Positions 12,465 through 57,542 of a stretch of DNA of 64,000 nt are shown one piece after another. This DNA comes from Capsulimonadaceae bacterium (GTDB lineage: Bacteria > Armatimonadota > Armatimonadia > Armatimonadales > Capsulimonadaceae): positions 1 to 64,000 of the forward strand of contig JARLGU010000051.1 of the NCBI GenBank assembly GCA_031292625.1. Reading direction: 5' to 3'. A program made the position numbers and the translations under genes. Position 1 is the first letter of the stretch, and every line of letters starts with the position of its first letter. The notes below the pieces were generated by a model, which did no database searches, was not told the DNA's origin, and saw only the letters and a list, made by a program, of their open reading frames with translations.

Positions 12465-12472
12465 TACCAGTT

Positions 12473-15400: not shown

Positions 15401-15652
15401 TGCTACACCGGCACATCCCTTCCGTCGCCGCACTATGCAACCGGCGGCGTCAACGGGGTCGCGCCGGGCTTGACGTTCCAATACGATCCGCTTGAAGGCT
15501 TTCCGATTCTTGGCGTGGGCGCTGAAGGGGGTGTCGCTTCTACAACGACGTCAGCGCAATATATCCGGGTAGACCGATTCGGCCGTCCGCTGCCCTTCGT
15601 GCCCAACCTTCCGGTCAGCCCGGATCTGGTTTACAGCGGGCTTCCGAGCTAG
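12473..15652 (+). CDS. Giant PilX/GspK-like prepilin without Glu5
   Basis: A 1059-residue protein. The start at 12473 is 9 bases after the previous stop and gives MIDQDKN then a basic stretch and QQGQSLLIALAVLIILSFLG. Cleavage after Gly24 leaves no Glu at +5, the hallmark of PilX and GspK, which cap the pseudopilus tip. The open frame extends upstream to 12176, but that part overlaps the previous gene. A Ser/Thr-rich run (about 450-470 of this protein) separates two large domains. The usual PilX has under 200 residues and GspK about 320. The prepilin series ends here; a repeat element follows. Confidence 0.8.
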   Translation: MIDQDKNLRRGNEAVVARRRSQQGQSLLIALAVLIILSFLGTIFVAIVGHNLLSAQQSNRTSSADTYAQAGIDFADKMLQVSPEGADWRPPLQYNTTSPEVCTWLTAALSTDPDKTYLSAGYTRYNVGAGRFLLRVSYLNETGDASENPAPNTGAPQQTTTSKFLKIESVGLEGTVNPDDPTLVNVATSRPSTRTAYKPICLGDYSRFITNRFNRTDAACLGFPSVWGLLPGSASTASSTLYTPGVESVSLTSGGSAVNLALQSMPITFGSANAYTGTNSNATLGGGAIRANTDLRLYGVLNVYLNPRYGEDIETSGRLLFDGFNQGANGTADDRSQQPTQLIVTRPNLDTTQAPAAAYLYPTNAVLPSSGAGLFSTDQGAVRDGIDGSDNALYDNSNAYGGTDIDAASGYPRNVKRRNPPVIDQTDPQTQLSRYAALAQIGSTGALGGGTSSSTSSTSSSSSSSTAVAGYSGPFKSSGSLATIFVDNSADLQAESEQFTMRDQWINRADPQKAGYWRGPIYTPPGALVTFGMVPGTKQWGVTIVRSDISASGSTIWSWNNDNNGISSLAANRMRFVYAASATDQDGNATNGTASDPIYALNADNAPSTACSTTNPPQDNANNDVLIYTEGNVRVRGVISQPGDNGSGSPNNSHHITLVTNGIAYIDGCILKGNYASSTGGALSLGSEFGGSTTPVSTSSIAILARQYVCVNTTQFFPGTEEPQANLNAATIPPALIDSGWEFRSGQSLTMSVLYPKLYYATSSAANTVTPEKLYISASGEPTDAYGQVSIADPYNDVLRGSATPSQDPLFPGNDTTSIPEVPSPSNGIRDTSTLLPTSYSGALTGMTYGYGLEPFVLNFSADQARSAANWLVRRAAVLPGDIRIEAMLYAQDNSFFVIPGDWFNPDTSDTVDNFLSRNWTTGTGTTDKDFPAYGQPVDLKITIYGSVSENLPADIADQQAWMQKWGWIPQYHGADCYTGTSLPSPHYATGGVNGVAPGLTFQYDPLEGFPILGVGAEGGVASTTTSAQYIRVDRFGRPLPFVPNLPVSPDLVYSGLPS

Positions 15653-16001: not shown

Positions 16002-19000
16002 GTGACGAGTATGCCACATAAAGCGTTGAGCATCAATCGTAGTTTGGGATTGCCGATCGCCGGGCGAATGCTCGCATCCGTCGCGCTGCCGGCGCTTGCG
16101 TGTCTGGCGGTGCTGAGCGCGGGCGTTCGCGCTTGGGCGGGAGCGTATACGTATGGCACGCAGACGCGGGTCATCAATGCGGCGTACCTCGTGCTGCCAA
16201 GCGCGCACGAAGACGTAATCGGCGTTCCGGATCCGTATGTTTTCTATATCCTGAACAACCGTAACGATCTCCGGCCGAACAACTGGTCGCTGACCAACCC
16301 GATGAGCCCCAAGGTTGTCACGACCGCGCTTGCCAAGCGCTTCCAATCCTACACCGTCGGGTCGGTTACCTATCCTGGCTTGACGATCGGCGAGCCGGTC
16401 ACTCCGGCGATGGCCGCCTTCTGGGAGATCGATATCGGCGACCTCTCTACGACCAATGTGTCTCAATTCGATGTTCTAGTGATTCACATCGACGGCCTTA
16501 CGTACAACCTCAGTTCGGGGTCGTTCACTTGCGACACGCTGAACTTGAGCTCGTACAGCCGGCGGTGTCTTCGCCAGTTTTTGGACAAGGGCGGCACGCT
16601 GATTATCGACGGCGGCAGCGGGACGGCCGTGGACTCAGGGAATTCCGTGGTTTCGGGACACCAGGGCATGTGGGCGGCGACCGGGATGTTCGCGGATGTC
16701 CAATGGTACAACGGGCTCGGCAAGACCGGTATCGCGGAGACGCAGGTTAACGGCCAGCGCCATCCGTTGCTCACCGTGCCGTATTACCTGTCTCAGCAAG
16801 AGATCAACCAGCTTGGCGCGAATAACGTCGGCAACTACTTTCTCGCTTCCGGGCGTGGCGCGAGCAACCAAACGATCCCGACAACAGCCCTGAACCCGCC
16901 CGACGAATCGATTTTCGAGACCGTCGTCGGCAACTCGGCGGATGGCGGCCTGCCGTACATCGCGGCAGGCGATTACGGCGGCGGGCATATCATCGTGACG
17001 GCGGCGAACATTTGCAACGATATCAGCAATCCGGTCGTTCCCGCAGTGGGCCAGATCCCGCCGATCTTCTGCAATACGTCGGACTTCTCCGCCGCGCACG
17101 CCGAAGATCTCAAATTCATGGTTAACGCCATCTCGTACAGCTCGACATGTGCGCAAGGCGAGGGCTTCATTCCCCGGCACACGTCGTCCTCGGAAAGCGA
17201 GTTTGGCGGGTCGCTCCTGCCGACCTGGGAGTTTCCGCCGACGACCCCGACGAGCCCGACCAATTATCCGTTGGTATGGAATAGCGCGAACTGGTACAGT
17301 ACGACGACGCCGGCGATTTTCGCGAATATCGCGTTCATCACGGACGGTCAGGGCTTCCTGCACGCGTTCGACGTTTATCCAACCGAAGATCTGGATGGCA
17401 ACGGGAATGCCGACGACTACGCCGCCAGTCCGACGACGGATCCGCTCGTCCAAGAGAGGTCCGATAAGGATCTCTCGCAGGGCCGCGTTTACGATCAGCT
17501 CTGGACGTACTTGATCGACTCAGGCGGCGTATCGTCGCCCACCGTTGCCATTTTGCCGCAGAACAACACCAAATCCGGCTACACGTGGGTGATCGCGGAG
17601 GGCTCCGACGGTTCCGTGTACGGCGTCCCGGCCTGCGTCGCCGGCGGGGGAGCCCAGAAGCTTTACACCGCATCGGGCAACAAGTTTACGGTGTCTACGC
17701 CCCCGGTCCCGCCGCCGGCGCCGACCGTCTATCATGGCCGGATTTTCGCGATCCAGCCGGACAATAGTCTGGCGGTGATCGATCTGGCGCATCCGGTACA
17801 GAAGACGGCGGGCGGCACGAGCGATCCGATTACGTCGAACTATTTCAAGATGCAACTTCCCGTCCCCTCGAACACTACCTGGGGGCCTCCCTACTACGCT
17901 CCGATGGTGGCGTCGATCCCGAGCAGCGACGGAACATACGGCGGCGACGATATCGTCGTCACCGTGAGCTGTCAGAACTGCACGGTCTCCCTGCTCGTCG
18001 GCTCGCTGGACGAGACGATCCAGCCGTCATCCACGGCTTCGACGGCGACAATGGCCAATACCACCTACGCTACAAAGTCGATCACCGCCAAGTACAACGG
18101 CGTGATGGCGGTCGCGGCGCCCGAGGATCGCAGCAACGACTCGTACAACATGGATCAGTGGGTGTATATCAGCGATCCGAATTACAGCGTCGGTGGAAGT
18201 TCGACGGGAATTGCGACGAATGGCTACGCCGTCTTTTCCGGTATTACCGAATCGACGTCCGCTTCCTCCGCGGGCATCACGATTACATCGACGGATACGA
18301 CGGTCACGCCGGCGAATGTTTCCAGTTTCTACGCGGACTACGACTTGTCGTCGAACTCAACGACCGCAGTTACTAGCGGCCTACCAACCCGCATGCAGCT
18401 CATTCCGAGCGTCATGAGCGGCACGTCGACTGCCTATCTGTCGGGGAGTCCTGCGGAATCGCTTGGGAACCAAACGGTGTATACGGCCAACGCCGGCTTG
18501 GTGCCGTACATTGCCGGTCTTGTCGACCAGAACCCCGGCATTGGAGCTGGGTCGTCGGGCATCGCGGGACCGTATATGAGATGGCGTTTTGCGCTGGTCG
18601 GCGGCAACGGCACCGGCGATACGTCGAAGGCGTTGACGGATGGCGACGGGATCCAATACGCGTTCGCCGGGTTTGCCTTTGTCGGTTCGCCAATCATCGG
18701 CCCCGACGGCTTTGTCTACGCCCTGGCCTACAACGCGAACTACATTCCGCAATACAATTCGGACGGCACGTTAAACTCCGCGGGAACGGTGATCCCGACG
18801 ACGATCGTGATGTGCTTTAATCCGAACGCGCGTGTTTCGGCGACCGTCCCGTCAAGCTCAGGCTCATCGCAACCGACCACGGTGCAGCAGTATGTAGACA
18901 ACAACTATGTCAACGGCGTATCTCCTGGCTCGAGCGGAGCGAATACGCTTTCTCCGCCGCAAGTTCCCGTCAATTTTACGGGGGGAACATTTACGATCCG

Positions 19001-20975
19001 GCGCTTTGATAATCCGCTGAATGCGGACGCTTCCGTCGTACAGCCGGATATCGGCTTCCCGATGCCGCTGCAGGCGACGACGGCCAGCGTCGCGTCGAAT
19101 GGCTACGCGAACAGCAAGACGACCCTGGTCATCAAGCTGCACAGCGTCTCGAACAACGTCCCGATGCTCTACTGGTGGGCCAAAGTTCCGAACGCCTATC
19201 CAGTGAGCGGAAATACGCTGATTCTGTCGCCGATGACGATGGTTGGGGACTGGCTCTATTTTGGCGCGCAATATGGAAACACGGGGGCATACTACATCTT
19301 CTCAGTGTGCGGGCGCAAGATCAGCCTGGGCGTCGGGATGAACGGCACTACGCGGGAGATTAATGAGAGCGGCAACACCGCCTACTTCAACTACTTCCCG
19401 TCGCAGGTCGGACAGATCCTTTCGCCGCTTGTGAGCGCGGGCCGGTATGCCGTGGCGCAGGGAGGGCTCGGCATTGAGGGCTTCGGTGACATGCTGACGC
19501 TTGTCTCCGACCGCGACCGCCTTATCGCGTTCAATCCGGACGGCTCCGCGGAATGGTCTTGCGATTCCACGTACCAGGCCAATTCCCAGGGCGGCGCGAG
19601 TTCGACGGCGACGCAGACCACGTCCAAGCTCAGCCTTAACCGGCCGTCGACGCTTTCGCAGCTTTCCGCCAGCGACTATCTGACCGCCGATACGGGCAAT
19701 AACCGGTGCGTTCGCCTCGATCAAGCCGGACAGGCGACCTGGGAACTGACGACGTTCAGCGATCCGTACCTCCTGATGCCTGCGGGGCAGTCGAACGCGC
19801 TCGCGAAGCCGACTAGCTGCATCACCTGGAGCACGGTCAATTCGACGAACACCCAGTTAACGAACCACTACCTGGTCTCCGATACCGGCAACTACCGCGT
19901 GCTCGAAGTGGACGACACGTACACGATCAGTTCGACGACCGCGACCCAGTCGATCGACGTAACTAATCCGTATGCCTACCACACGCTGGTTTGGGAGAGC
20001 CACACCCTGGAGCAGGGGCGAAAGTATCAGTATGTCGCAGCCCAGGTCTACCAGGGAGCCGATAGCAGCTACTATATCATGGCAGCCGTGGCGAACAAAA
20101 GGATTGCGCCAATCGTCCTACCCACGGGCCAATCGAACTACCAACTGCAGCCGCCTGCGTCCGACGCCGAGGGAAGCTCGATCGTGCTGCTGTACTACGG
20201 CGGTCCGAACGTGTATTGGGGCTATTCGGACGCAATTACCGGAGATTGTCCGACACGCGCCGGGACGGTCGCGAACTCGACGACTATTCTCGGCGGAACG
20301 ATTGCGTACCGGTACTTGTCGACCGCGTCGAATAATCAGAGTATCCAGTATCTCTTGCCGCTGATCACGTACAAGACGTATAATGCGGGCTCGATCGTGA
20401 TGCCGCCGACGCCGTTGCGGGGCGTACGGTTCCTGGTCGACTATTACCGCTATCCTGCGACGTTTGCGACACAGCGGACGATGTTCTGCGACGATGACGG
20501 AGTGTTCGACGGCATTCCGGCGGCCATGACGGCGGGGACGAATCCGCCAGCGCTGGTTACGTCGGGAAATCAGTTTGTTTGGTATCTGAATGCATACGAC
20601 GAGTATGTGTCGCCGAACTTGTCGTCGGATCCATATGGGCTCTCATTTACTGAGTACGATTATGACGGGACCGTCGCCAGCTACACGGTTACAGCGTCGA
20701 ACAATCAGCCTCAGATGCCCTATCGGTCAACGATGTTCCGCCCGGCGTCGGCGCTGTTGCTGGCGAATCAGGATTATTTGATTACGAACCAGGCGTCGAG
20801 TGGAGATCCGGGCTCTGCCGACACGGTGAGCGTAGGGGGCAATGTATTTGAGGTTTACAGGTCGACCAGCCCTACGTCGCCCCCGCAGCATGCGTGGGAT
20901 TTGATCCGGGTGTGGGGCTTGCCGACCAACTCGGCTCCTTTGGTCCAGCCGGCGTTTGCGATGCGCCCGCTCTAG
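16002..20975 (+). CDS. Large secreted protein with beta-propeller-like repeats, PilY1 position
   Basis: About 1657 residues, exported by a signal peptide (hydrophobic LASVALPALACLAVLSAG, cleavage near AWA-GA). I chose GTG at 16002 because AGGAG lies 8 bases upstream; ATG at 16011 is the alternative. An N-terminal region has VLVIHIDG, then FLDKGGTLIIDGG and GGGHIIVTAANI, resembling glutamine-amidotransferase-like or DUF4159-type folds. Later repeats such as GFLHAFDV, GRIFAIQPDN, GFVYALAYN, RLIAFNPDGSAEW and TGNYRVLEVDD look like PQQ-type or NHL-type propeller blades. A possible calcium loop reads DLDGNGNAD. It follows PilV, PilW and PilX-like genes as PilY1 does, so a tip adhesin role is inferred. 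No homology was tested. Confidence 0.65.
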   Translation: MTSMPHKALSINRSLGLPIAGRMLASVALPALACLAVLSAGVRAWAGAYTYGTQTRVINAAYLVLPSAHEDVIGVPDPYVFYILNNRNDLRPNNWSLTNPMSPKVVTTALAKRFQSYTVGSVTYPGLTIGEPVTPAMAAFWEIDIGDLSTTNVSQFDVLVIHIDGLTYNLSSGSFTCDTLNLSSYSRRCLRQFLDKGGTLIIDGGSGTAVDSGNSVVSGHQGMWAATGMFADVQWYNGLGKTGIAETQVNGQRHPLLTVPYYLSQQEINQLGANNVGNYFLASGRGASNQTIPTTALNPPDESIFETVVGNSADGGLPYIAAGDYGGGHIIVTAANICNDISNPVVPAVGQIPPIFCNTSDFSAAHAEDLKFMVNAISYSSTCAQGEGFIPRHTSSSESEFGGSLLPTWEFPPTTPTSPTNYPLVWNSANWYSTTTPAIFANIAFITDGQGFLHAFDVYPTEDLDGNGNADDYAASPTTDPLVQERSDKDLSQGRVYDQLWTYLIDSGGVSSPTVAILPQNNTKSGYTWVIAEGSDGSVYGVPACVAGGGAQKLYTASGNKFTVSTPPVPPPAPTVYHGRIFAIQPDNSLAVIDLAHPVQKTAGGTSDPITSNYFKMQLPVPSNTTWGPPYYAPMVASIPSSDGTYGGDDIVVTVSCQNCTVSLLVGSLDETIQPSSTASTATMANTTYATKSITAKYNGVMAVAAPEDRSNDSYNMDQWVYISDPNYSVGGSSTGIATNGYAVFSGITESTSASSAGITITSTDTTVTPANVSSFYADYDLSSNSTTAVTSGLPTRMQLIPSVMSGTSTAYLSGSPAESLGNQTVYTANAGLVPYIAGLVDQNPGIGAGSSGIAGPYMRWRFALVGGNGTGDTSKALTDGDGIQYAFAGFAFVGSPIIGPDGFVYALAYNANYIPQYNSDGTLNSAGTVIPTTIVMCFNPNARVSATVPSSSGSSQPTTVQQYVDNNYVNGVSPGSSGANTLSPPQVPVNFTGGTFTIRRFDNPLNADASVVQPDIGFPMPLQATTASVASNGYANSKTTLVIKLHSVSNNVPMLYWWAKVPNAYPVSGNTLILSPMTMVGDWLYFGAQYGNTGAYYIFSVCGRKISLGVGMNGTTREINESGNTAYFNYFPSQVGQILSPLVSAGRYAVAQGGLGIEGFGDMLTLVSDRDRLIAFNPDGSAEWSCDSTYQANSQGGASSTATQTTSKLSLNRPSTLSQLSASDYLTADTGNNRCVRLDQAGQATWELTTFSDPYLLMPAGQSNALAKPTSCITWSTVNSTNTQLTNHYLVSDTGNYRVLEVDDTYTISSTTATQSIDVTNPYAYHTLVWESHTLEQGRKYQYVAAQVYQGADSSYYIMAAVANKRIAPIVLPTGQSNYQLQPPASDAEGSSIVLLYYGGPNVYWGYSDAITGDCPTRAGTVANSTTILGGTIAYRYLSTASNNQSIQYLLPLITYKTYNAGSIVMPPTPLRGVRFLVDYYRYPATFATQRTMFCDDDGVFDGIPAAMTAGTNPPALVTSGNQFVWYLNAYDEYVSPNLSSDPYGLSFTEYDYDGTVASYTVTASNNQPQMPYRSTMFRPASALLLANQDYLITNQASSGDPGSADTVSVGGNVFEVYRSTSPTSPPQHAWDLIRVWGLPTNSAPLVQPAFAMRPL

Positions 20976-21057
20976 GCGAGACATCTCGCGGACCGGGAGA
21001 ACGCGGCCGATGCCTTACACATATAAATGACGTGCGCTACGACGAGGACGCGAAAGC

Positions 21058-24000
21058 ATGACAGCGATGAAAGACAAACTGCATAAAATCGCAGCGCTTG
21101 GAGCCGGCGCGGTCGCCGTGCTTGCGATTCCGTGCGCGCCGCTGCACGCGCAAACGACGCCAGGGCAGCTTCAGACCTACACGGACACGCTGATCCATCC
21201 CTTCCACCCGTTTTCGTGGCAACAGTACCGCGGCATGATGGGCGTCAACGCCAACTACAATTACTCGACGGCGATCAATTCGTCGAATTCGGCGACGTTT
21301 CCGGCGAACAACTACACTGGGATTTTCGCTTCGAGCGGGACGCCGATGGTTGTGCCCAACTCGGCGTTCGCCGACGCGGCGGTACAGCAAGGGACGACGT
21401 TCGCGTTTCCAAATCCGCTATTCCAGACGACCGGATCGGTGATCGATGACATCCTGAACCGTTGGGAACTGATTGACCCGACGTTTACGCCGCCGAACGT
21501 CCTTCCGGCTACGCAGATCAACGGAAGCCTGCTCGGCGACTATTACGATCCGACGAACTTCGAGCCGCCGTACAGCCGCAACGTCTTCCGCGATTGGGAT
21601 AGGACGGGATGGAGCGCTCCCAACAAATATGTGAACGGCCTGAGCGGGGCCGAAAACGCGACCGTCGTCGACGACAATAATACGTGGAACGGGCTTCATT
21701 CCGGATCCAACACGTTTGCCCCGAACGGCTTCTCGGCGACGCAGCAGGCAGTCACAAGGGCGTGGCCCTTGCAGAGCAGCACCACGACGGCTAACGACGA
21801 GGACACGGTCGTCGCCGCGAACACGGCTACGGCGGTGGGCGCAGGCAAGGGCGCGACTTGGACAATCACCGGCTCCGGCGGACAGTTCGAGCTATACGTT
21901 TACGTGCCGACGCCCGCTGCCGATCAGCATCCGGTTCCCGACGCGCTTTACACCTACCTGATCGATGGCGTGCAGCAGGGAACGTTCTACGTCAACCAGA
22001 CGACGAACTTCGGCTCCTGGTACGATTCCGGCGTTGCGCTTACGCTCGCTACGGCCGATACGTTGACCGTGCGACTGGATTCGACATCCACTTTTGGCAC
22101 GGTTGCGCTGACTCCGATCACCTGCACGCTGGATTCCAACAGCCCAACGGTAAGCACCGACGCATTCGATTGGGACCCGTTCGGCGTCGAAGGCTCCGGG
22201 ACCACCACGGTCTACGCCAGCGACGGCAGCTACTACACGGTGGAGATCTACCCGCAGCAATCCGCAACGCCGTCGTCCAACGCGGTTACTTACGGCGTTA
22301 CCGGTGAAGGCATCGCTTACGGAACGTGGCCGGTGAACGGCACGGCTCCAAGCACTGCGGGCAGCTCTACCGCGATCGACCAATCTGCAACCCGGTACAA
22401 CCATTGGGTGCAGCTCGACATGGAAGATGCCAGCGGCAACGAGCAGCTTGCGGTACCCTTTAAATATACGCCGCCGACCGACGGCTCGACGTGGGACAGC
22501 AAAAACTACCTCTCGCTTGCCGGATCAGGCGCGGTTGCCGGCGGCGTGCGCATCACGAAGGTCAGCGAGCAGACGATTTACGCCGGCGGTAAGACGGACG
22601 CCGGCGGGAGCGGCCAGACGTCGACGACCGGTTGGACGGTTACGGGCTCTGGCGCGGCGAGCATCGCGACGGCATTGCCGACGACGGCGCCTGCCGTATC
22701 CGTGACGTTCCAGTGGCTGCCGGTCTTCGCGGCGACCGATGTTCCGCAGAGCTATAACGTACTCGTCCACATTCCCTCGTCCGCATCCGCCGCGTCGACG
22801 AACCCGGGCATTACCGATGCGCAGTATGTGGTCGTCGCGGGCGGGATCAACTACGTCACCGCGCCGATCAACCAGCAGACGTCGGCGGGAAAGTGGGTGG
22901 CGCTTAGGTATCCGGTAAGCACAAGCAACCCGATGAGCGGCAAGCTGATCGAAGCGCCCTTTGCGGCGCTTGGAACGCTGACGCAGGCGGTGTACAACAC
23001 CTATAACTACGTGCAGTTGGCCAACGGGACATCGAACACCTACTCAAGCCAACTCGTATACGCCGATGCCGTGCAGTTCGTCGCGGTCCCCGGATCGTAC
23101 GATGTCGCCGCCGACGCCGTGAAGATGGTCGGCAACGGCTTGACCGTGGACGATGTGCTTGCCGGCAGCGCCGTTTTTAAGATGACCGGCAGTTGGGTAA
23201 AGGACACGACCGCGCCGGACTACTACGGATCCGATTATCTCAAGTCCACGTCGCCTTCGTCGTCGACCGCAACCTGGTTGCCGACATTGCCTACGACGGG
23301 GCTCTATTCGGTCTACGCGTGGTTTCCGTCGAATACGTCCGGCGAGACGCATGTTACAAACGCCCAGTATTCGATCAACGTGCCCGGCGCAACGACGCAG
23401 ATTTCCGCTATATCGGTGGACCAGACCTACGGCGGGTCGTGGCAGTTTCTCGCCGGTCCGCTCTCGTTTGCGTCGCTCAACTCGTCGGGGAGCGTTCCCA
23501 GCGTGACGGTCTCCTGCCCATCGCCGCTTCCCTCCTCTGGAGCGGTATTGGTGGCTGACGCCATCATGTTCGTCAACGAAAGCTCCGCAGGGGCGACCTA
23601 TTCGTCGGCAGTCGTCGCGAACATTACCGACTACCCGGAGATTTTCTACGGCTACGATTTCAACACGATCGCCACCGTGACCGACCTAACGAGCACGATC
23701 GCACTTCCCGGATCTTATCCGGCCTATCCCGGCGGCGGCTATGCCAATTACATTTCCGACACAGTGTACAGCGGCGTGTCGTACGGCAATTTACCGCTCG
23801 TCCACAACAACAACATCATCTTTACCCAGGCAGGCGCGACGACGACCGATCCGCCAATTACAACAATTCCGCCGTATTACGCGGCGAACCCCGCGACCCC
23901 GATCACGGAAGGGGATGGTGTAACCGCGACTGGAAATACCTCCGCGATTACGCAACTTGTCTATTTCGCGCGCAACGAGAACGTCGCCAGCTCCGGCAAT

Positions 24001-27000
24001 GCCGCAACCACCGTGGCCGGCACGATTTACTGCGTGGACGGCTTGACCGGGGACATCGTCTGGAAGTATCCCGATGACTACACGCCTGCTTTGGAGCGAC
24101 CGGGCTTTATTTCCGGCACGCCGGTTCTCCTGCGCAATGTATTGACCCGCGTTAACCAACCCTGGTATGAGACGGGCGATCCCGGCTACGTGGCGCTTGG
24201 CACCGGAGGGACCATCGTTCCGACCGGCCAGGTAAACAACCGCGGCGCGTACGGCACGTTTAATTCGGTGACCGATTTTATCGATCCGCCGAACTGGCCG
24301 AGCGGGACCCCGGCGCTGAATTGGCAGGAGGCAGCCTATCCCGCGTTTTCCACGACGGGCGATGTTTATCAGCCGCGCACGGTCCTTGTCGTCGGCGACG
24401 ATAACGGCAAGCTGTTTTGCATCGACGCGGCAGGCAATGGGGATGGCAACGATATCATCCACGACTCGACGTCCCCGACGCCGTATCCGGTGAGCTTCGA
24501 CAGCAGCGGCAATCCATACACGTCGGCAGGGACGCCGACTGGAACGCTTTCAGTCACGCACGTCGGAACCACTCGCTGTTACTGGTGCTGGCAGCCGGAT
24601 TCCAGCAGTCCGCTTGCGCAGGGCGGGGGATCGACATCGACGGGGACGCCGTTTGACGATGTGGCCGCGGGCACGCCGTCTCCAAGCAATGCATGGACAA
24701 CGCAAACGGTATCTGGCGCATATGACGGGACATGCCAGACACATACGGTGACGAGCGCGGGCGGCGGCGACTCATCCACCTTTGCGTGGACATTGACGCT
24801 CACTACGGCCGGAGTTTACGGCATTTCGGTGCAGGTGCCGGATATCTCCGGCGTTACTTACGGCGCGGCCGAGTATACATTCACGGACGCATCAGGCGCT
24901 ACGCATGTTTGCACGCTCGCAGCTCCTCAAGGGCAGGCGGCCGCCATAGGCAGTCCATATGCGCTCACCGATGCGAAGGGGAATACGACGTTCAGCTTGG
25001 GGACTACGACGCAGATCGTCCTCGATGCAACCATCGCCGCAGCGAACTCGACGCTCGTGGCGGACGTTGTTTTCGTGAACCCAGGTGTGTCCGGGGAAGC
25101 GCTGGATTACACGCGGAACCTGATTACGCCGTCCTCCTATCAGCTGAACGGCCCGACAGCGGCGTTGACGCAGGACACGGCCTGGGGCACGGCGGTCGCC
25201 AGCGCGGCCGCTGGAACGATTAGCCCGGCAATCGTCTATGACCCGAAGTTGTTCATCGGCAACTCCAATGGCGTTTTGTATTCGATTGACGGCAAGGGAA
25301 CCCTTGCCAATCCCGCGAACTCCGTTGTCAATCCCAAGATCTACGACCTGAGCCTGGACCAGACATTCCCGACGGTCACGGTGAACTGGTGGTTCAACAC
25401 GGGAAGCTCCATCGCATATGCGCCGGTATTCGATCCGCTCGACAACATCGTGATCGCCACGACCTACAACAGCAGCGGCAACAATCAGGGGCGCGTCTAT
25501 GCCGTGAACGCCGACTATGGCCCGGTCGGCAACGGCGGCGTCGTTCCAGCAAGCCAGATATCGACGGGGGCGACCGGCACGGTTATTACTCCAGTTCCGG
25601 ATACGTACAATTACAATATCAACCCCATTCCGTACTGGTCCTTCCCGGATGGCTTCGGCAGTCTCGTGGACACAAACGGCAACCCGCTTGGCACAGTGCC
25701 GGCCAACCTGAACAGCTCGAGCGAGGTGTTCCCGGAGAACTTCCCTTACCCGAATAATAACGTCGCAATGCCGGTGCACCTTCTTACGTCAAAGGTGGCC
25801 AATGGGAGCGGCAACCTTGCAATCCTGCCGCTCGGCGACATCGCGGGAGCGCCGGCGTTGTATACGAACCCGAACAGCACGACGCGCTACATCTATGTTG
25901 CGTGCAACGATCCGCTGACCAATCTTAACGGGCGCATAATGGCCCTGGACACGAGCGGTCAGTTCCAGTGGAGCTTTCCGCACACGAATGTCGACACGAC
26001 CACGGGCAGTGCGGATCCGAATTGTGACGCAACGGTAGAGACGCAGCAGGCGCAGTTCACCGCCGACCTGACGGCGTCCAATACGCTGGTGATCGACGGC
26101 GCGTTTACGACTCAGTTGTCGTCGCCAAGCTATTTCGTATCGTCGTCACCGGCGATTGCGATGATTACGGCCCCGTCGAGCGACCCGTACTCGCCGTTCA
26201 ATTCGGGCTCGTCTCAGAGCGGCTCGCCCGCAGACGACGCTCCGACGCCCGTGCTCTATGTGGGCAACACGAATGGCGATCTTTATGAGATCGCGCTCGC
26301 GCCGCCGCCTGGGGCGAGCTTCGGGGCGGATAAGCCCAATTCGGCGAACTATGATTCCGATATCCTGTACGGTTTGGGCCTGACGTTTGGCGGCGCGGGG
26401 GTGGTGAGCGCGCCCGCCGTGATCTCCGGCAGCGCCGGTAACCTGACCACGGGCAAACGCGGCGGCGTCGCGTGGTTTAACGGCGCGAACGACGGCCTCA
26501 CGGAAACCGAGGCCGCGCCGTATCAATATAACGGCACAGCGATCTACGGCAACCGCGATGCAAACCTTGGCGGAGATCAGGATGCGGCGCTGCGCCCCGG
26601 CGGCCTTTCGTCGCCCACGCTTGGCGGCTTCGACATCTTCCCGATGACGCAGCAGCATCTGCAAACCAGCAGCAGCGGCGGATATACCACTGGGGATATC
26701 CTTACCGATATCAGCGAATGGGTCTATTCCGGCTCCGACGGCGGGCAGTTGTTCGGCTTCACTGCCAACGCGTCGATCGGCGCGGGAACGGGCGCGGGAT
26801 CGGTCAATCCCGCCAATTTCATCCCGATCGAAAACGCCGGGGAGTCTCTTCCCGGCCTCGTGGACCTCACGCGCAACCTGATCACGTCAGTGTCGCCGGA
26901 CGGCACGCTTGGCCCGGACGGCACGAGCGACGCCACGGCGTTCGGATGGTGCCGCAACTTTACGCCGGTCAAGGCTGCCTCGGGCGCTCCATCGGCGGTT

Positions 27001-30000
27001 CTGTCCGATGGCGCAACAGTTGACCCGAAGACCGATCCAAACCCGGTGACCGAGTGGGGACAGACGTTTTACGTGAAAGTCTTCGGCTTGGACAATCCCG
27101 CGAATACGGGAACAAGCGCTAGCGGCGTACCGATGCCCAAGCCCCTCTACGTTAAGTTTAGCCTGAGCAATATCTCGACCGGCAGCACGAGTTCGTATGT
27201 GGAGTCGCGCACGGTGACGCCAGACCGGTTCTACCCGATCGGCGACGCGGGCCCGTCTTCCGCATGGTGGACGACTCCTGGCGGGCCTCCTTGGCTTGCG
27301 TCGTCCGCGACCACATCGTCGATCGGCAACTACGTCGCGATCTACCCGGTGGTGATGGGCAACGGCTCTACGGGCGAGCTGACGCCGACGCTCAAGATCA
27401 AGGTCACGGATGTGGAGTACCACTATCTGTTGAACGGTCAGGAGCACGTGATTCGGGCGCACGTCGACCCAGGAACGCTGGTCAATAACGGCAAGGGCGG
27501 ATTGACGCTGACGACGCCGATCGATCAGGCGACGTTCGGGATCCTGAATCCGCTGGCCGTGCGCGGCGCGGGGCTGCCATTCGATATTTCGCAGGCTTCG
27601 GCGGTGGAGCTCGGTCTTTCGCCTGCAGGCGAAAACCCAACTCTTACGTCTGTTCCGATCCGCGATCTCGGTCCGTTCCAAAGCTTCGACAACATGGTGC
27701 CGGTTTTCAAAGTGTACAAGTATGCCTCGTGCAATGGCAATGAGGTGCCGCGCGGAACGACGCCTCCCTCCGGCGGTACGGCAACCGGCAGCGGCGGGAC
27801 GATCATCTCGGACCCCAAGAAGTTGATGAACACGTCCAGCGGCGTTTCGTTGTCGTACTTCACGATGATCGTCGCGACGACGACGGCCGGGCTGCTCGGT
27901 CACGGCGCGGTTGGCGACAATAGCACCGCGACCGCGCTTGGCGCGGGTGTCGTTGCGGGCGATCCTGCGACGATCAATTCCGAGGGCACGACGACGCCGA
28001 ATATTATTCCAACGACCGCCAATGGCGGCGGAGGTTTTGGCAAGACGCTTCTCAATGTGGCGGACCGCAGCGCGCTCGGCGTGAACAATGAGCAGATCAC
28101 CAGCCTGCGCATGACGTCAACGAAGCTGGCTTGGAATTGTAATCCGATCACGGGCACCTTCACGATCGCGCCGAATGGCAGCCCGATGGGCAGCGGCGCG
28201 GTCATCAACCGCTTGCCGTGGGACTCCTATCCGACTTCGTACACAGTCGGGACTAACCAGAGCATCGACTATCCCGACATCACCCAGTATGCCGTTACGG
28301 CGACGCTGCAGCGGCGCTCGAGCTATGACGGCTCGTCGCCCGGGACGACTGCCGGCATCGTTTACGCCGCTGGAACGCTTGCGAATACGAGCTCTACGGT
28401 CTCATCGACCAACAATCGCGATGTCAATCCACAGTCGGTTCAGATCACGGTGAACGTGCCGAAGTACCAACCCGCCAACCTTGAGGCTTACAGTAACTAC
28501 TACGCCAGTCAGGGAATCGAGGCGTCGGGAATTAACCATCTGCATCCGGATGCGGGATCGACAAGCGATCCTGCGCCCGGGGCCGACATTCCGAATGGCT
28601 ACGTAGGGTTGGCGAGTATGTATATCGACTCGGGCAACACCGGAACCATGAACACGACGAAGGCTTACCGGAACGTGCAGATCTGGACGGGCGTCCAGGC
28701 CGACATGAACAGCATTACCATCGATCAGCCGACGACCGATATCGGCGCGGTGCCCGCCGGATTTGGCATCGAGGACCCGCTCGATTCCGTCTGGGCGTCG
28801 GTCGCGGTCGGTACGGACACGACGGGCCTCACGGCCAATTCGGCATCGTGGAGTCCGTTCAGCGGGACGAGCAATTCGCGGTTCGCGCACTGGTACCAGG
28901 CCGTTACCGCGCACAACACGGGCAATGTCAATTTGCTCAACATTCACTTCGATCAGTACCTGAACTACAGTACGGCTGCCGCCGGAGGATGGGGCGTGCC
29001 TTATAAGAGCGTGTCCGCGCTCAATCTGACGAACGACGGCGCGAGCGGTAATTCGTTCATTCCGTCGGTGGATACCGTCGCGGGGACGACGGGGCTCCTG
29101 ACCGCCGGTCCCAACGCGCAGGCCGGGCTGATGCCGGTCGTCCGCAGTTCCGCCGATTACTTTGACCAGTATGCGACGTGGAATTCCTCTGCCAACCATT
29201 GGGATGATTCTGGAAGCGGCTACCTGCCATACTGGAACGCCTATATTCCGAACGGAGCCGAGCTCTCGTCGAAGACCGGAGAGGCTGCCTATAACTATCC
29301 TGGCCCGACGTGGCACAAGCCGCGCATCGGAGACAGCGCGCTGTGGGGGGCGACCTTCACCGTGCCCGACCAGCCGCATGACGCGCTGAATCCGCTTACG
29401 AGCGCTCAGGCGACCGGTTCGCCCAAGCTAAGCGTCGCCGTGCCGATGGGAACGCCTTCGGGCACCTACTCGCAGGCCTTGCGTCTCTTCGAGGGCTACG
29501 ATGCCGCGCCGCTTTCGAGCGGAGCTGTTTCCACGGCCTATACGGGGCCGCTCTACGGCGGTCAGGCCGTGCCGATACAGGTCAAGAGCACGGCGTCTCC
29601 CTATGCGCTTTCGCTTGACGCCAGTACGAATACGATCTTGCAGCCGTACAGCCAGACGCCAACACAGATCAAGGTGACGGTTACAGAGGCGCGGATCACG
29701 TCGGGGACGACGAGCAATGCGCACCTGGAAGCGAGCGACGGGACGAACTTGAGCGCGTCGCTGCCGATGGTGGACTTTGACGACAACGACGGCAACCTGG
29801 AGACGTTGGCCTTGACGGGCGCGCCGACGGGGACCAACGTTCTTGCGACCCCCATTGCGAACGACTTGCAGCCGGTTGGCTTCCCCGCCGCGCTGGATTT
29901 GACCAGTTCGTCAGTGACTTCGTCGATTGGCCTTGTTTGGGCCTCAGCCCGGTACGATTCCTCGGGCGACTCCCGAATCGCCAAGGCGTACCTGCCGTAC

Positions 30001-32493
30001 GATGTGCTGGGCGCTGCCGTTCTGAGCGCGCCGCTAAACGGGACCGCGGCGACGGCCGCGACATCTACGACGGCGGCCGTGCAGGGTTCCTCGGGCTGGG
30101 GCTCGCTGGTCAACACGGCCGCGCAGCCATCGAGCGCATCGGTGTCCGGGACCAACACCGGCCTTTGGTGGACGCCGCCCTTTGCGGTCACGAGCTTTGG
30201 CGCGTCGTTGCTCGCTGGGACGTCCGTTCCCGCATCGCAGGCGTACGATCCGTTCGTGCTCGTAAGCCGGGACGGGACGAACAACCAGCTGCTGCATGTC
30301 GAGGCGCGCTCTCAGTCGGTCGGCATGGTGCTGCCGACAACGTACACTATCGTGGAGCAGCCGATCCAGGGCGCGATCGTACGGAACACTACGTCAAACG
30401 CCTGGCAGTTTGCGACTCCGGGAACCGCCACGACTCTCGTCACGAGCAGCCAGCAGATCTTCCACCCGCGGGCGGTTTGGTACTACGACAACATTGGCCT
30501 CAAGTCGTACGAGATCGTTATCTTCACCCAGCGCGTGAATAATACGTCGACGCTCATGTACGTCGTTTACGATCCTAATGCGGCGTCCGGCAACCCGACT
30601 GTCTCCACCCCTGCTGTCTTGCCGACTCCGGCTGGGCTTTCCGATCTGAGCGACGCCTCGCCGGTCGTCCGCTATATCGTGACGTCTCTGGGATCGTCCA
30701 CATGGACGAGCGACCAACCAGGCGCAAACAATGTCCAGAGCTTTGGAGAGTATATCGACGTGACGTTCGCGGGTCGTTCGGAGCATTCGAGCAGCACGGA
30801 CATCTTCACGTGCCGCTATACGGTGACTCCGGCGTCTACGGTAGGACCGTGGCTGTCGATCCCGAACATTCACTCGGCCGGCTACACAAATGTCGGGATG
30901 TCGCCGCACGGCGGGTTGATTACGCAAAAGCTGCTTGTCGGAGCAAACAAGGCGACGTATGTGGGGCGTGACGCATGCTGGTCGCGCGATCCGTCGAACT
31001 TTACGCTGTACTTGAAATCCAGCACGGGCGTAGTCGATCCGATGATCGGGCCGAACGCTCCGTCTACCGTGTCCTTCAAGACGGACCCGAACAGCGGCGC
31101 GTGGGTCTTCACCAGCGTCCCCGTGATCGCCAATGCGACGCAGGGCGTCTACTGGAACTACAACGCCAACGGAAGCACTTCTTCGACGTCGACTACCACT
31201 ATGACGGTGACCGTCGATCCTTTTGCGGGGACCGTGTCGTTCTCGGTCCCGCCCGACATAAACGCAACCGACGCGAATCACCTGACCTGGGGCATCTACG
31301 CGGACGTTTTGCCGCAGGCGTTGCGGGTGACGAACGGCATGGGATCGAACTCGCAGCCGTGCGCATTCCTGGATGATGCGCCGAAGGCCAACGCGAGCGT
31401 CAACCTCACTACGGTTCAGACGGCGCGCTATTGGCAGATTTATCGCAAATCGGGCACCGAATCGACGGGGGCGTCTACGGCGAGTTCGACGTTGTATTAC
31501 AATACGCGCCGCCTTGCCATTACGCTGACCTATCCGATCGCGCTCTCGTCGATCTCGCCGGTAGCGGTCGTTGCTCCGACGGTCATCGTAACGGACGGGA
31601 CGACAACGAGGGATGTCTCGGCGTACGTCGACGTCGACTGGGAGCGTGGCCGGATTTACTTCCCTGAGCAGTTTGAGGGATTGTCGGCCCGCGTGACCTA
31701 TACGCCCGCGCCGTTTGGTTCAGGGACGACTTCGGCCCAGCGGACGGAGCCGAGCGCCACGACGTATTCAGTGATCCAGTGGACGGACGAGCCCTTTTCC
31801 AACTCTCCGCAGGATGCCGCGACAATCGCTTCGGGGACGCCTGCCATCGCATTGACTGGCGAGCGGACGGTTCCGATCTATAACGCGGTGAATGAAGGCG
31901 AGCCGAGCGCGTTTCTCGATCCTGCTGCCTACCTTGCTTATATTTCAGGGGCGACGACGAACCCGGGATTCGTGGGCCAAACCAGTTCGCTGAGCGCCTT
32001 TAACGGGGCTGAACCGCTCAACAATCCGCACAAAGTCTGGATGTTCTGGAGCAGCAATCGCAACGGCGGCAAGCTCAATTCGACGCCGGTGGCGACGACG
32101 ATCATGAGCCTTAAGGCGACCACGACATCGGGCGTTACGACCACAACAATCACCGTTGCGTCGACGGCGAACATTACGAGCGGCGTCTACAGAATTGGCC
32201 GGGGAGATTCCGCCGAGGACATTGCCGTGGCAGTCGACGGCAGCGGGAACATAACGACGACATATAGCGTGGCGAGTACGTACGTGGGGAAGGCCTTTGG
32301 CAATGTCCGGCTGAGCGATTATGTCCAACAGGCAAGCGCATCGACACCGGTTACGTATACGTACTGGAAGCCGGTCGTGGACAATCCGGGCAACCTGCCC
32401 TGGGTTACAGGCAGCGACTCATGGCTGTTATACACGGGCATGACCGATGTCTATTGGCAGACAATCGACCCACGGTTCCAGATAAGCCCGTAA
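21058..32493 (+). CDS. 3811-residue secreted giant protein, probable surface or pilus-tip adhesin
   Basis: The largest gene in the window. It has a signal peptide (KIAALGAGAVAVLAIPCAPLHA-Q). Between about residues 240 and 860, and again near 1240-1340, are repeated modules of the type YSVYAWFP ... VDQTYGGSWQFLAGP, which resemble golvesin C-terminal or xanthan-lyase-type binding domains. From about 985 to 1900 come PQQ-like blades: TIYCVDGLTGDIVWKYP, GVLYSIDGKG, GRVYAVNADYG, GRIMALDTSGQFQWSFP, GDLYEIALA. The rest is Ser/Thr/Gly-rich beta-type sequence without recognised domains, and the C-terminal part holds WERGRIYFPEQFEG. No sortase motif or transmembrane anchor is seen at the C-terminus. 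It ends the first pilus operon. Adhesin function is inferred from context. Confidence 0.65.
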   Translation: MTAMKDKLHKIAALGAGAVAVLAIPCAPLHAQTTPGQLQTYTDTLIHPFHPFSWQQYRGMMGVNANYNYSTAINSSNSATFPANNYTGIFASSGTPMVVPNSAFADAAVQQGTTFAFPNPLFQTTGSVIDDILNRWELIDPTFTPPNVLPATQINGSLLGDYYDPTNFEPPYSRNVFRDWDRTGWSAPNKYVNGLSGAENATVVDDNNTWNGLHSGSNTFAPNGFSATQQAVTRAWPLQSSTTTANDEDTVVAANTATAVGAGKGATWTITGSGGQFELYVYVPTPAADQHPVPDALYTYLIDGVQQGTFYVNQTTNFGSWYDSGVALTLATADTLTVRLDSTSTFGTVALTPITCTLDSNSPTVSTDAFDWDPFGVEGSGTTTVYASDGSYYTVEIYPQQSATPSSNAVTYGVTGEGIAYGTWPVNGTAPSTAGSSTAIDQSATRYNHWVQLDMEDASGNEQLAVPFKYTPPTDGSTWDSKNYLSLAGSGAVAGGVRITKVSEQTIYAGGKTDAGGSGQTSTTGWTVTGSGAASIATALPTTAPAVSVTFQWLPVFAATDVPQSYNVLVHIPSSASAASTNPGITDAQYVVVAGGINYVTAPINQQTSAGKWVALRYPVSTSNPMSGKLIEAPFAALGTLTQAVYNTYNYVQLANGTSNTYSSQLVYADAVQFVAVPGSYDVAADAVKMVGNGLTVDDVLAGSAVFKMTGSWVKDTTAPDYYGSDYLKSTSPSSSTATWLPTLPTTGLYSVYAWFPSNTSGETHVTNAQYSINVPGATTQISAISVDQTYGGSWQFLAGPLSFASLNSSGSVPSVTVSCPSPLPSSGAVLVADAIMFVNESSAGATYSSAVVANITDYPEIFYGYDFNTIATVTDLTSTIALPGSYPAYPGGGYANYISDTVYSGVSYGNLPLVHNNNIIFTQAGATTTDPPITTIPPYYAANPATPITEGDGVTATGNTSAITQLVYFARNENVASSGNAATTVAGTIYCVDGLTGDIVWKYPDDYTPALERPGFISGTPVLLRNVLTRVNQPWYETGDPGYVALGTGGTIVPTGQVNNRGAYGTFNSVTDFIDPPNWPSGTPALNWQEAAYPAFSTTGDVYQPRTVLVVGDDNGKLFCIDAAGNGDGNDIIHDSTSPTPYPVSFDSSGNPYTSAGTPTGTLSVTHVGTTRCYWCWQPDSSSPLAQGGGSTSTGTPFDDVAAGTPSPSNAWTTQTVSGAYDGTCQTHTVTSAGGGDSSTFAWTLTLTTAGVYGISVQVPDISGVTYGAAEYTFTDASGATHVCTLAAPQGQAAAIGSPYALTDAKGNTTFSLGTTTQIVLDATIAAANSTLVADVVFVNPGVSGEALDYTRNLITPSSYQLNGPTAALTQDTAWGTAVASAAAGTISPAIVYDPKLFIGNSNGVLYSIDGKGTLANPANSVVNPKIYDLSLDQTFPTVTVNWWFNTGSSIAYAPVFDPLDNIVIATTYNSSGNNQGRVYAVNADYGPVGNGGVVPASQISTGATGTVITPVPDTYNYNINPIPYWSFPDGFGSLVDTNGNPLGTVPANLNSSSEVFPENFPYPNNNVAMPVHLLTSKVANGSGNLAILPLGDIAGAPALYTNPNSTTRYIYVACNDPLTNLNGRIMALDTSGQFQWSFPHTNVDTTTGSADPNCDATVETQQAQFTADLTASNTLVIDGAFTTQLSSPSYFVSSSPAIAMITAPSSDPYSPFNSGSSQSGSPADDAPTPVLYVGNTNGDLYEIALAPPPGASFGADKPNSANYDSDILYGLGLTFGGAGVVSAPAVISGSAGNLTTGKRGGVAWFNGANDGLTETEAAPYQYNGTAIYGNRDANLGGDQDAALRPGGLSSPTLGGFDIFPMTQQHLQTSSSGGYTTGDILTDISEWVYSGSDGGQLFGFTANASIGAGTGAGSVNPANFIPIENAGESLPGLVDLTRNLITSVSPDGTLGPDGTSDATAFGWCRNFTPVKAASGAPSAVLSDGATVDPKTDPNPVTEWGQTFYVKVFGLDNPANTGTSASGVPMPKPLYVKFSLSNISTGSTSSYVESRTVTPDRFYPIGDAGPSSAWWTTPGGPPWLASSATTSSIGNYVAIYPVVMGNGSTGELTPTLKIKVTDVEYHYLLNGQEHVIRAHVDPGTLVNNGKGGLTLTTPIDQATFGILNPLAVRGAGLPFDISQASAVELGLSPAGENPTLTSVPIRDLGPFQSFDNMVPVFKVYKYASCNGNEVPRGTTPPSGGTATGSGGTIISDPKKLMNTSSGVSLSYFTMIVATTTAGLLGHGAVGDNSTATALGAGVVAGDPATINSEGTTTPNIIPTTANGGGGFGKTLLNVADRSALGVNNEQITSLRMTSTKLAWNCNPITGTFTIAPNGSPMGSGAVINRLPWDSYPTSYTVGTNQSIDYPDITQYAVTATLQRRSSYDGSSPGTTAGIVYAAGTLANTSSTVSSTNNRDVNPQSVQITVNVPKYQPANLEAYSNYYASQGIEASGINHLHPDAGSTSDPAPGADIPNGYVGLASMYIDSGNTGTMNTTKAYRNVQIWTGVQADMNSITIDQPTTDIGAVPAGFGIEDPLDSVWASVAVGTDTTGLTANSASWSPFSGTSNSRFAHWYQAVTAHNTGNVNLLNIHFDQYLNYSTAAAGGWGVPYKSVSALNLTNDGASGNSFIPSVDTVAGTTGLLTAGPNAQAGLMPVVRSSADYFDQYATWNSSANHWDDSGSGYLPYWNAYIPNGAELSSKTGEAAYNYPGPTWHKPRIGDSALWGATFTVPDQPHDALNPLTSAQATGSPKLSVAVPMGTPSGTYSQALRLFEGYDAAPLSSGAVSTAYTGPLYGGQAVPIQVKSTASPYALSLDASTNTILQPYSQTPTQIKVTVTEARITSGTTSNAHLEASDGTNLSASLPMVDFDDNDGNLETLALTGAPTGTNVLATPIANDLQPVGFPAALDLTSSSVTSSIGLVWASARYDSSGDSRIAKAYLPYDVLGAAVLSAPLNGTAATAATSTTAAVQGSSGWGSLVNTAAQPSSASVSGTNTGLWWTPPFAVTSFGASLLAGTSVPASQAYDPFVLVSRDGTNNQLLHVEARSQSVGMVLPTTYTIVEQPIQGAIVRNTTSNAWQFATPGTATTLVTSSQQIFHPRAVWYYDNIGLKSYEIVIFTQRVNNTSTLMYVVYDPNAASGNPTVSTPAVLPTPAGLSDLSDASPVVRYIVTSLGSSTWTSDQPGANNVQSFGEYIDVTFAGRSEHSSSTDIFTCRYTVTPASTVGPWLSIPNIHSAGYTNVGMSPHGGLITQKLLVGANKATYVGRDACWSRDPSNFTLYLKSSTGVVDPMIGPNAPSTVSFKTDPNSGAWVFTSVPVIANATQGVYWNYNANGSTSSTSTTTMTVTVDPFAGTVSFSVPPDINATDANHLTWGIYADVLPQALRVTNGMGSNSQPCAFLDDAPKANASVNLTTVQTARYWQIYRKSGTESTGASTASSTLYYNTRRLAITLTYPIALSSISPVAVVAPTVIVTDGTTTRDVSAYVDVDWERGRIYFPEQFEGLSARVTYTPAPFGSGTTSAQRTEPSATTYSVIQWTDEPFSNSPQDAATIASGTPAIALTGERTVPIYNAVNEGEPSAFLDPAAYLAYISGATTNPGFVGQTSSLSAFNGAEPLNNPHKVWMFWSSNRNGGKLNSTPVATTIMSLKATTTSGVTTTTITVASTANITSGVYRIGRGDSAEDIAVAVDGSGNITTTYSVASTYVGKAFGNVRLSDYVQQASASTPVTYTYWKPVVDNPGNLPWVTGSDSWLLYTGMTDVYWQTIDPRFQISP

Positions 32494-32749: not shown

Positions 32750-34321
32750 ATGGCGTTATCTCCAGTCGTCGGTCTCGACATCGGCACTAACCAGATGAAG
32801 GCGGTCGAACTGCATCCCAGCGGTAAAGAGGGATTGACCATCACGAACCTGGCGTTCGCGCCGACGCCGCCCGGGATTATCCAGAACGGCATCATCACGG
32901 ATCCTCGCTTGATGGGGCATTCAATCAAGCAGATGTTCAAGGACGCCGGGATTCGGGTGAAGAAGGTCGTTGCCAGCCTGGCCGGCCAATCGTCGGTTGT
33001 CGTCCGCATCATCGAAGTGCCGAAAATGAGCCCGCAAGAGCTTGGAGAGACGATGAAGTGGGAAGTGGAGCGCCATGTTCCATTCTCGCCGACCGATGTG
33101 CAGCTGGATTATGTCGCGTTGCCCTCGTACGATCCGAACGACGAAAACCCGAACATGGCCGTTTTGCTCGCGGTTGCGCAGAACGAGATGGTCAACAATT
33201 TTGTAGACACGCTCTTTGCCGCCGGTCTCGACCCGGTCGCGCTCGATATCGAGCCGCTTGCAACCGGCCGCGCACTGCTCGACCTGCTGGACGGTCGTCC
33301 CGTGGTTCGCCAATTTCCTCCTCCGGTCATCGAAGACGAGGAAGGGAACTTGATCAGCCAGGACGAGACGATAGCGGTGGTCAATATTGGGGCGGCGAAT
33401 ACCGACATCAGCATTTTTGAGAACGATCTGCTGATCTTTCCGCGCTCGCTGTCGTTGGCGGGAGACAGTATTACGCGGCAGATTTCGGAGAGTCTCGGCT
33501 ACACGAACGAGCAGGCAGAGACGCTTAAGCGCGAACACGGCGGCGTGATCTTGGAGCGCGTCGATAACTTCGCCGAAGGTTACAACCAGGAAGAGCAGCA
33601 GCCTGGGGCTGAGGCCGAGACCAGCGAGTTTGAGAATTTCCGGCCTGCCGGCTTGCCGCAAAGCGGTCCGCTGAGCGAGATGAGTTCTCCGTTCGACGTG
33701 GACGACGAGACCGAGGAGATTACAGCGGCGACTCCCACCGAGCCCGACCCGGACCTGGAGCGAACGCAACCGATCCCACGACGTACGATCGACCTTGCGC
33801 GCCGTGCGCCAACGCCGGAACCATCCGATTTGCTATCGTCGATTGGCGGCGACGAAAATCAGCGCGAGCAGGTGTTCGACGCAATTTCACCCGTATTAAT
33901 GGAGCTGTCGAGCGAGCTTCGGCGATCGTTGGATTATTATCGCAGCCGCTCTCAGGGCAGCAACGTGGACCGTATTCTTTTGTGCGGCGGCACCGCGAGC
34001 CTGCGCGATCTTGACGAATATCTTAGCCGCGAGCTTCAAGTTCCGGTTGAGGTCGCCAACCCATTTGCGCACATTCACGTGTCCAGTAAGCATTACGATG
34101 CCGACTACCTGACCAGCATCGGCCCGCTCTTTTGCGTCGCGGTAGGTTTAGCGGTTCGGGAAGCCGTCTTTCTGGCCAATCCGCAGGCGGCGCCGAAACC
34201 GGCCAAGGCGGCAAAGCCCGAGGGGGCCAGCAAGTTTAAGTTGCCGTTCAGCCTGGGACTTCCCAAGAAGGAGAAGACGGGTGCAACGACGGGCGAGCCC
34301 ACTCTTCCGCCAGGGCAGTGA
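32750..34321 (+). CDS. pilM: Type IV pilus assembly actin-like protein PilM with an acidic insertion
   Basis: Cytoplasmic FtsA-like ATP-binding protein that links PilB/PilC to PilN and the alignment complex. It begins with the family motif VVGLDIGTNQMKAVEL; other motifs are SVVVRIIEVPKM, MKWEVERHVPF and the phosphate-loop VVNIGAANTDISIF (210-223). The C-terminal actin-like part has LLCGGTASLRDLDEYLSREL. Length is 523 against about 350 usually. The surplus is mainly an acidic, Pro-rich stretch at about 280-368 inserted within the actin-like fold, plus a Pro-rich tail. The Shine-Dalgarno is weak. It is the first gene of the pilMNO-PilP-like-pilQ operon. Confidence 0.93.
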   Translation: MALSPVVGLDIGTNQMKAVELHPSGKEGLTITNLAFAPTPPGIIQNGIITDPRLMGHSIKQMFKDAGIRVKKVVASLAGQSSVVVRIIEVPKMSPQELGETMKWEVERHVPFSPTDVQLDYVALPSYDPNDENPNMAVLLAVAQNEMVNNFVDTLFAAGLDPVALDIEPLATGRALLDLLDGRPVVRQFPPPVIEDEEGNLISQDETIAVVNIGAANTDISIFENDLLIFPRSLSLAGDSITRQISESLGYTNEQAETLKREHGGVILERVDNFAEGYNQEEQQPGAEAETSEFENFRPAGLPQSGPLSEMSSPFDVDDETEEITAATPTEPDPDLERTQPIPRRTIDLARRAPTPEPSDLLSSIGGDENQREQVFDAISPVLMELSSELRRSLDYYRSRSQGSNVDRILLCGGTASLRDLDEYLSRELQVPVEVANPFAHIHVSSKHYDADYLTSIGPLFCVAVGLAVREAVFLANPQAAPKPAKAAKPEGASKFKLPFSLGLPKKEKTGATTGEPTLPPGQ

Positions 34322-38207: not shown

Positions 38208-38334
38208 AACCCAGCGTGTGAGCATAGCACGTTAGGCGGGCGGAATGCCGGTGGCCGCACCGGCGCTGACGACCCAAAGTAACTGTTCTAAGCGGGGCAC
38301 TGGATCCCGCCGTTCCAAGGAGGATACCCATCAC

Positions 38335-54012: not shown

Positions 54013-54081
54013 GTTTTCTCCTTTGTGATTCCAGTAGTCGGCCGGATCAAGCCTGGACGACGTCTTCTTTGGATGGAGACG

Positions 54082-54111
54082 ATAATACTTTAATCCTATG
54101 GGGTTTGTCAA
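54082..54111 (-). promoter_or_regulatory. Promoter of the DUF1559 gene
   Basis: On the minus strand TTGACA (54111-54106) and TATTAT (54087-54082) are separated by 18 bases. The surrounding 54082-54180 is notably AT-rich compared with the rest of the window. Confidence 0.75.
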
Positions 54112-54195
54112 CAATTCGTTAAAATAAATACCTAAATGTGGATAGGGATAATTTAAATTCTGGTTAATCGGGCTTTTGTAAAAGAGGCGTTCCAA

Positions 54196-57385: not shown

Positions 57386-57542
57386 TGGGTCCCTCTCGAT
57401 AGGGTAGCACTGCAAACGGGAACTGCGGCGGATCGTACGGCTGGCCGCTTACACGGTTAGGATACCTCAAGTCGCGATCAGCGTCTTCGTATCGACGCGC
57501 AAATCTGCCTACATGTCTATTTGCGCGCACGAATACGCAGCG

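Follow-up and report, generated by a model that had tools for sequence, protein, structure and literature searches.

To our knowledge, no tip adhesin and priming protein of type IVa pili other than PilY1 is well known. The absence of Glu5 is a known mark of PilX and GspK, and the minor pilins of textbook systems measure roughly 150-250 aa. M. xanthus carries FimU-PilV-PilW-PilX-PilY1 clusters (PMC7541494, PMC13190605), whose PilX lacks Glu5 and has been placed beside PilY1 at the pilus tip (PMC7541494). In the cases of T. thermophilus ComZ (PMC6561018) and S. sanguinis PilB (PMC8179133), tip-associated pilins are enlarged by extra domains. Among the Armatimonadota, the Fimbriimonas genome paper describes PilB, C, D, Q, M and PilT together with many pilins (PMC4072686), and Denise et al. 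2019 report type II secretion systems (T2SS) in Armatimonadetes and do not mention PilY1 (PMC6668835).

We analysed a window of 64,000 nt (the whole stretch of DNA studied) on contig C18 of an Armatimonadota genome (5.77 Mb, 96% complete), in which a pilus operon encodes two secreted giants, here called A and B. As in M. xanthus and further bacteria (pilV-pilW-pilX-pilY1), the order is pV-pW-pX-A, with a Glu5-less PilX beside the gene in PilY1 position; in contrast to M. xanthus, one operon holds the whole machine, the minor pilins reach 694-1059 aa, there are two giants, and the operon map includes no TfcP-like cytochrome. The large size of pV, pW and pX recalls ComZ and S. sanguinis PilB, but here two separate non-pilin secreted proteins add further mass. 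Searches of the open literature on Armatimonadota pili, on Golvesin or DUF4159 with the pilus and on Verru_Chthon gave no earlier description of A or B. To this extent the proposal of a preliminary description, that the window holds an undescribed system, seems to hold, but the machine itself is the known type IVa pilus in a variant form that extends across the phylum. On balance, we favour the explanation that proteins not detectably related to PilY1 form the tip (priming) complex of this pilus, with A on pX together with pW and pV, and with B as a second exported giant.

The pilus operon and the type of machine

The operon runs from 836 to 40179, entirely on the + strand, in the following order:

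836-2767, +: PilB/GspE-type assembly ATPase with MshEN domain (Pfam T2SSE 1e-136, MshEN; NCBIfam type_IV_pilB on top but under its cut-off)
2878-4182, +: PilT retraction ATPase (NCBIfam pilT_fam, 486 bits; cut-off 319)
4240-5490, +: PilC inner-membrane platform (T2SSF)
5531-6643, +: PilD prepilin peptidase (A24_N_bact and Peptidase_A24)
6750-7844, +: pA, GspG/PilA-like pilin, 364 aa (N_methyl; gspG-like N-terminus)
7885-9969, +: pV, pilin in PilV position, 694 aa (N_methyl; type_IV_pilV 2e-6, under cut-off)
9969-12464, +: pW, pilin in PilW position, 831 aa (N_methyl; ATG start at 9969)
12473-15652, +: pX, PilX/GspK-like pilin without Glu5, 1059 aa (N-terminus GQSLLIALAVLIILSFL; family profile in 140/151 genomes)
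16002-20975, +: A, secreted protein of 1657 aa that occupies the PilY1 position, with DUF4159-like domain and tandem beta-propellers (family domains, position, model)
21058-32493, +: B, secreted 3811-aa multidomain protein with Golvesin_C, PQQ-type propeller, Ig-like and TolB-like parts (Pfam, domains of relatives)
32750-34321, +: PilM (NCBIfam pilM, 215 bits; cut-off 133)
34335-35177, +: PilN-position protein (position and family profile from relatives; no Pfam match)
35237-35980, +: PilO-position protein (position and family profile from relatives; no Pfam match)
36120-37259, +: PilP-position protein containing a stretch of Gly/Pro-rich repeats (family profile and position)
37424-38134, +: SecN, secretin N-terminal (STN) domain encoded on its own (PF07660 2e-9)
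38245-40179, +: PilQ secretin (PF00263 9e-39)

The type IVa pilus set (PilB, PilT, PilC, PilD, PilM, PilN, PilO, PilP, PilQ and pilins) is complete, with PilT and PilM assigned by NCBIfam and the rest either by Pfam or by their position together with a family profile. Since the NCBIfam scores of PilT and PilM are above the cut-offs, we take the machine to be a type IVa pilus and not a T2SS. The make-up of a T2SS (a set of GspC, GspL, GspM and GspD, without PilT) does not fit the locus, as PilT and PilM are present and separate PilM and PilN-position genes replace GspL. The cleavage-site sequence GQSLLIALAVLIILSFL shows that pX lacks Glu5, as does GspK among the T2SS minor pseudopilins, but here PilT and PilM accompany it in a pilus-type operon.

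This GspK-like trait, together with a pA that scores nearest GspG and a PilQ that scores near GspD (NCBIfam), would fit a pilus machine acting as a type II-like piston, with A and B as its substrates, ending as free or surface-bound exoproteins and not as parts of the tip. T2SS have been reported in Armatimonadetes (PMC6668835), and a comparison of PilY1 itself with T2SS substrates has been drawn (PMC7541494). We nevertheless consider such a role unlikely, as PilT and PilM score as expected of a retractile type IVa pilus, and pV and pW have modules in common with B. Moreover, T2SS substrates are usually many and scattered, whereas the giants are single-copy and always lie within the assembly operon.

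The minor pilins pV, pW and pX (7885-15652 in the window) are oversized throughout the phylum, and a search of viral contigs for pX relatives found none. The STN domain likewise forms its own gene ahead of PilQ throughout the phylum. The PilP-position protein contains collagen-like Gly/Pro/Lys repeats, with tandem repeats at 36281-36355 and 36507-36583. The genome (G000) has three secretins, on contigs C12, C18 and C20, and only that of the window adjoins A and B.

Giant A in the position of PilY1

The preliminary description had reported two giant reading frames with signal peptides and propeller-like blades, and both frames proved exact. A starts with GTG, with AGGAG just 5′ of it, 349 bp after pX. 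As read from the sequence, the N-termini of A and B each combine basic residues with a hydrophobic core and an AxA-like site, which corresponds to a Sec-type signal peptide and to the type I signal peptide of PilY1. The blades are supported by PQQ_2 and NHL matches in the A family with a tandem-propeller model, and by PQQ_2/ACSF4 matches in the B family. The A of the window itself matched no Pfam family; among 20 family members, DUF4159 was matched near the N-terminus in 16 (best 2e-9), PQQ_2 in nine and NHL in eight. The segmental structure prediction proposed earlier was informative for A, where an AlphaFold model of residues 423-1622 reached a modest confidence (pLDDT 62, pTM 0.59) as a tandem propeller, but not for the C-terminal part of B (pLDDT 41). 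In a Foldseek search of the PDB, the A model matched best to proteins with tandem propellers (DDB1, SF3B and Lgl2 among them), and the PilY1 structure 3HX6 was absent among the best 50 matches of this modest-confidence model. A PDB search with the A profile matched nearly exclusively designed or NHL propellers, and PDB sequence searches with single proteins returned nothing useful.

An alignment of A homologues revealed a further feature:

17388-17414, +: EF-hand-like calcium loop DLDGNGNAD of the PilY1 motif type, residues 463-471 of A

The loop comes after a blade strand, and Dx[DN]x[DN]GxxD occurs at this one aligned spot in 24 of 37 A homologues, about a third being without it. EF-hand-like loops are common. 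With N at position 5, the loop of the window departs there from the PilY1 consensus, Dx[DN]xDGxxD (PMC8833165), to which it is otherwise close.

We then examined membership of the PilY1 family (PF05567). Neither A nor B of the window matched it at E<=1, and nor did 20 A-family and 17 B-family members at E<=0.1; because the match is absent in all members tested, we do not file A and B as PilY1. None of the 151 phylum genomes gave a PF05567 match, a weak negative since all 14 control genomes were silent too. A resembles the PilY1/PilC tip adhesin in its Sec export, its slot after pilV-pilW-pilX, a predicted beta-propeller, a putative EF-hand-like calcium loop and a variable N-terminal domain, and differs from it in its tandem PQQ/NHL-type propellers and in size (1.3-1.9 kaa, followed by a second giant of 2.2-3.8 kaa). 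Judged on these traits, A appears PilY1-like by position and architecture, with kinship to PilY1 undetected. The shared operon slot, the propeller architecture and the loop after a blade strand would also be expected if A were a very divergent true homologue, its propeller sharing ancestry with the PilY1 domain. We regard this as improbable, given the silence of PF05567 in the 20 A members, matches to PQQ and NHL propellers, the preference of Foldseek for tandem-propeller proteins, and an N-terminal domain that is DUF4159-like where PilY1 has vWFA.

Across the phylum, the A family was found in 96 of 151 sampled Armatimonadota genomes with a single-sequence query and in 118 with a 20-member profile; B was found in 91, and pX in the 140 given above. 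About a fifth of the sampled genomes gave no strong A match, though most of them carry pX. Wherever A and pX share a contig (108 of 108 genomes), A comes directly after pX in the same orientation, at a distance of <=2.5 kb in 106; the other two are matches that begin mid-protein. In seven further genomes, which stand outside this count, A and pX are split over different contigs. B comes after A in 65/65 co-contig genomes, with a spacing of 15 kb in G125. The gene order sought in other Armatimonadota was thereby recovered, and the 20 genomes that we mapped have the same PilB-to-B array, with an A of 1342-1861 aa and an intact B of 2155-3811 aa, that of the window being the longest. In its own genome A is single-copy, the one other match being marginal. 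Correlations of r 0.74-0.89 link the tree distances of both giants to those of PilB/GspE, pX and PilQ, as expected of the parts of one machine.

This phylum-wide conservation means that the giants are not a chance observation. Modules of the A and B kind do occur in numerous unrelated secreted proteins, and the giants could on that account be ordinary surface proteins encoded near pilus genes by coincidence. We strongly disfavour this notion and hold it to be very improbable in view of the phylum-wide linkage and the co-variation of the giants with pilus genes. Homologues away from pilus loci, which the preliminary description had named as grounds for refutation, were sought and not found: no A is unlinked, and a B detached from A precedes PilM-N-O-P-Q.

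A search of named genomes for A relatives, run with six closer A sequences and only two peptide patterns, returned 23 true relatives and five matches from outside the Armatimonadota (L147-L151). These five were rejected, the match being confined to the NHL stretch. One of them (L150, from the Candidatus Sericytochromatia genome G153), the one examined in full, also has no recognisable signal peptide and lies where no pilus genes occur. The A query, run on 146 genomes of the G153 phylum, matched the NHL stretch only. As the named-genome search was limited to two peptide patterns, distant relatives outside the Armatimonadota are possible.

Giant B and its shared module

Two stretches of B were delimited:

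23170-23574, +: top Golvesin_C domain, residues 705-839 of B (PF25275, E 1.5e-22, three stretches)
31192-31731, +: two copies of a VDxxxGxIxF beta-module, about residues 3379-3558 of B (module profile and strict-core scan)

Golvesin_C was the sole Pfam family matched by the B of the window. In the B family, Golvesin_C was matched in 9/17 members and PQQ_2/ACSF4 in 7/17, and relatives contain Ig-like modules. The N-terminal half is very variable. No homology between A and B was detectable over the two stretches compared.

The positions of the two giants are not equivalent. Both had been described as directly following PilX-like prepilins, in the place of PilY1. For A this holds strongly, by the pX-A order, the propellers and the calcium loop, but B follows A. 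In six genomes (G020, G034, G095, G113, G119 and G135), B lies on a separate contig directly upstream of PilM, with a complete PilM-N-O-P-SecN-PilQ run recognisable in five of them, and it is beside PilM in others. B is hence not simply a second PilY1, since it follows A and, when apart from A, heads the PilMNOPQ operon; it joins the pilin part of the locus to its PilMNOPQ part. This detached arrangement, together with the correlation of B and PilQ distances (r 0.89, n=8), would suit an A that is a PilY1-like tip protein and a B that stays in the envelope at the secretin, as a surface collar or plug. A stationary B seems doubtful to us, as at least seven other mapped genomes have B with A and the pilins and PilM elsewhere, and as its many surface-type modules and very variable N-terminal half are adhesin-like.

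The beta-module of B also argues against a stationary protein, since it is common to B, pV and pW. Among about 2400 other ORFs, the B-derived VDxxxGxIxF profile matched only pV, pW and A, mostly at sub-significant levels (one pW member at 0.0016). Per 1000 aa, B, pV and pW contain 0.50-0.79 copies of the strict core, compared to 0.01 in other ORFs (a >50-fold difference), and shuffled sequence contains essentially none. In the window, the sites lie near residues 229 and 494 of pV (in a loose form) and near 3386 and 3526 of B. This is a sign that the pilin ectodomains and B may be made of common parts, a generic beta-hairpin motif being the alternative, and the sharing of the module by pV, pW and B fits one shared assembly.

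A proposed two-giant tip complex

Returning to the tip complex that we favour, A most likely acts as the tip and priming protein, and B as a second adhesin that is exported, a reading built on the observed gene order, conservation, domain content, calcium loop and module common to B, pV and pW. As the two-giant arrangement is kept across the phylum, the pili of the Armatimonadota probably bear unrelated tip proteins of much larger size. In such a scheme, A would leave the cytoplasm via Sec and would dock on the Glu5-less pX, and A, pX, pW and pV would make up the complex that starts pilus assembly. The A-pilin complex would then ride the pilus tip outward through PilQ. The propellers and the calcium loop may stabilise A, with the DUF4159-like N-terminal domain as the exposed part. 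The Golvesin, PQQ-propeller and Ig-like modules of B most likely form a long surface adhesin or extension, which could be anchored on the tip complex or at the PilMNOPQ/secretin exit. The docking of A on pX, the tip location, the adhesion and the role of B are what we infer from the locus.

More tentatively, the phylum may have swapped PilY1 for an unrelated two-protein tip, consisting of a priming protein with tandem propellers and an adhesin of several thousand residues, which is made in part of the beta-module of the giant minor pilins; this tip would be several times larger than any described. If so, a phylum-wide, apparently non-homologous stand-in for PilY1 would imply that different folds can fill the tip position, and would offer a natural test of what a tip complex needs (a PilX partner, calcium, a Rossmann-like head). 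Two large families so far without a function would gain testable ones.

Two minor observations concern pilin genes. In three genomes (G096, G102 and G141), pX and A are apparently in one frame with a single TAG between them (open frame 2683, one stop), which may reflect read-through or chance. In the window, a DUF1559-type pilin (53059-54195, -) lies within a cell-division cluster, beside FtsZ (54255-55451) and FtsA (56114-57415).
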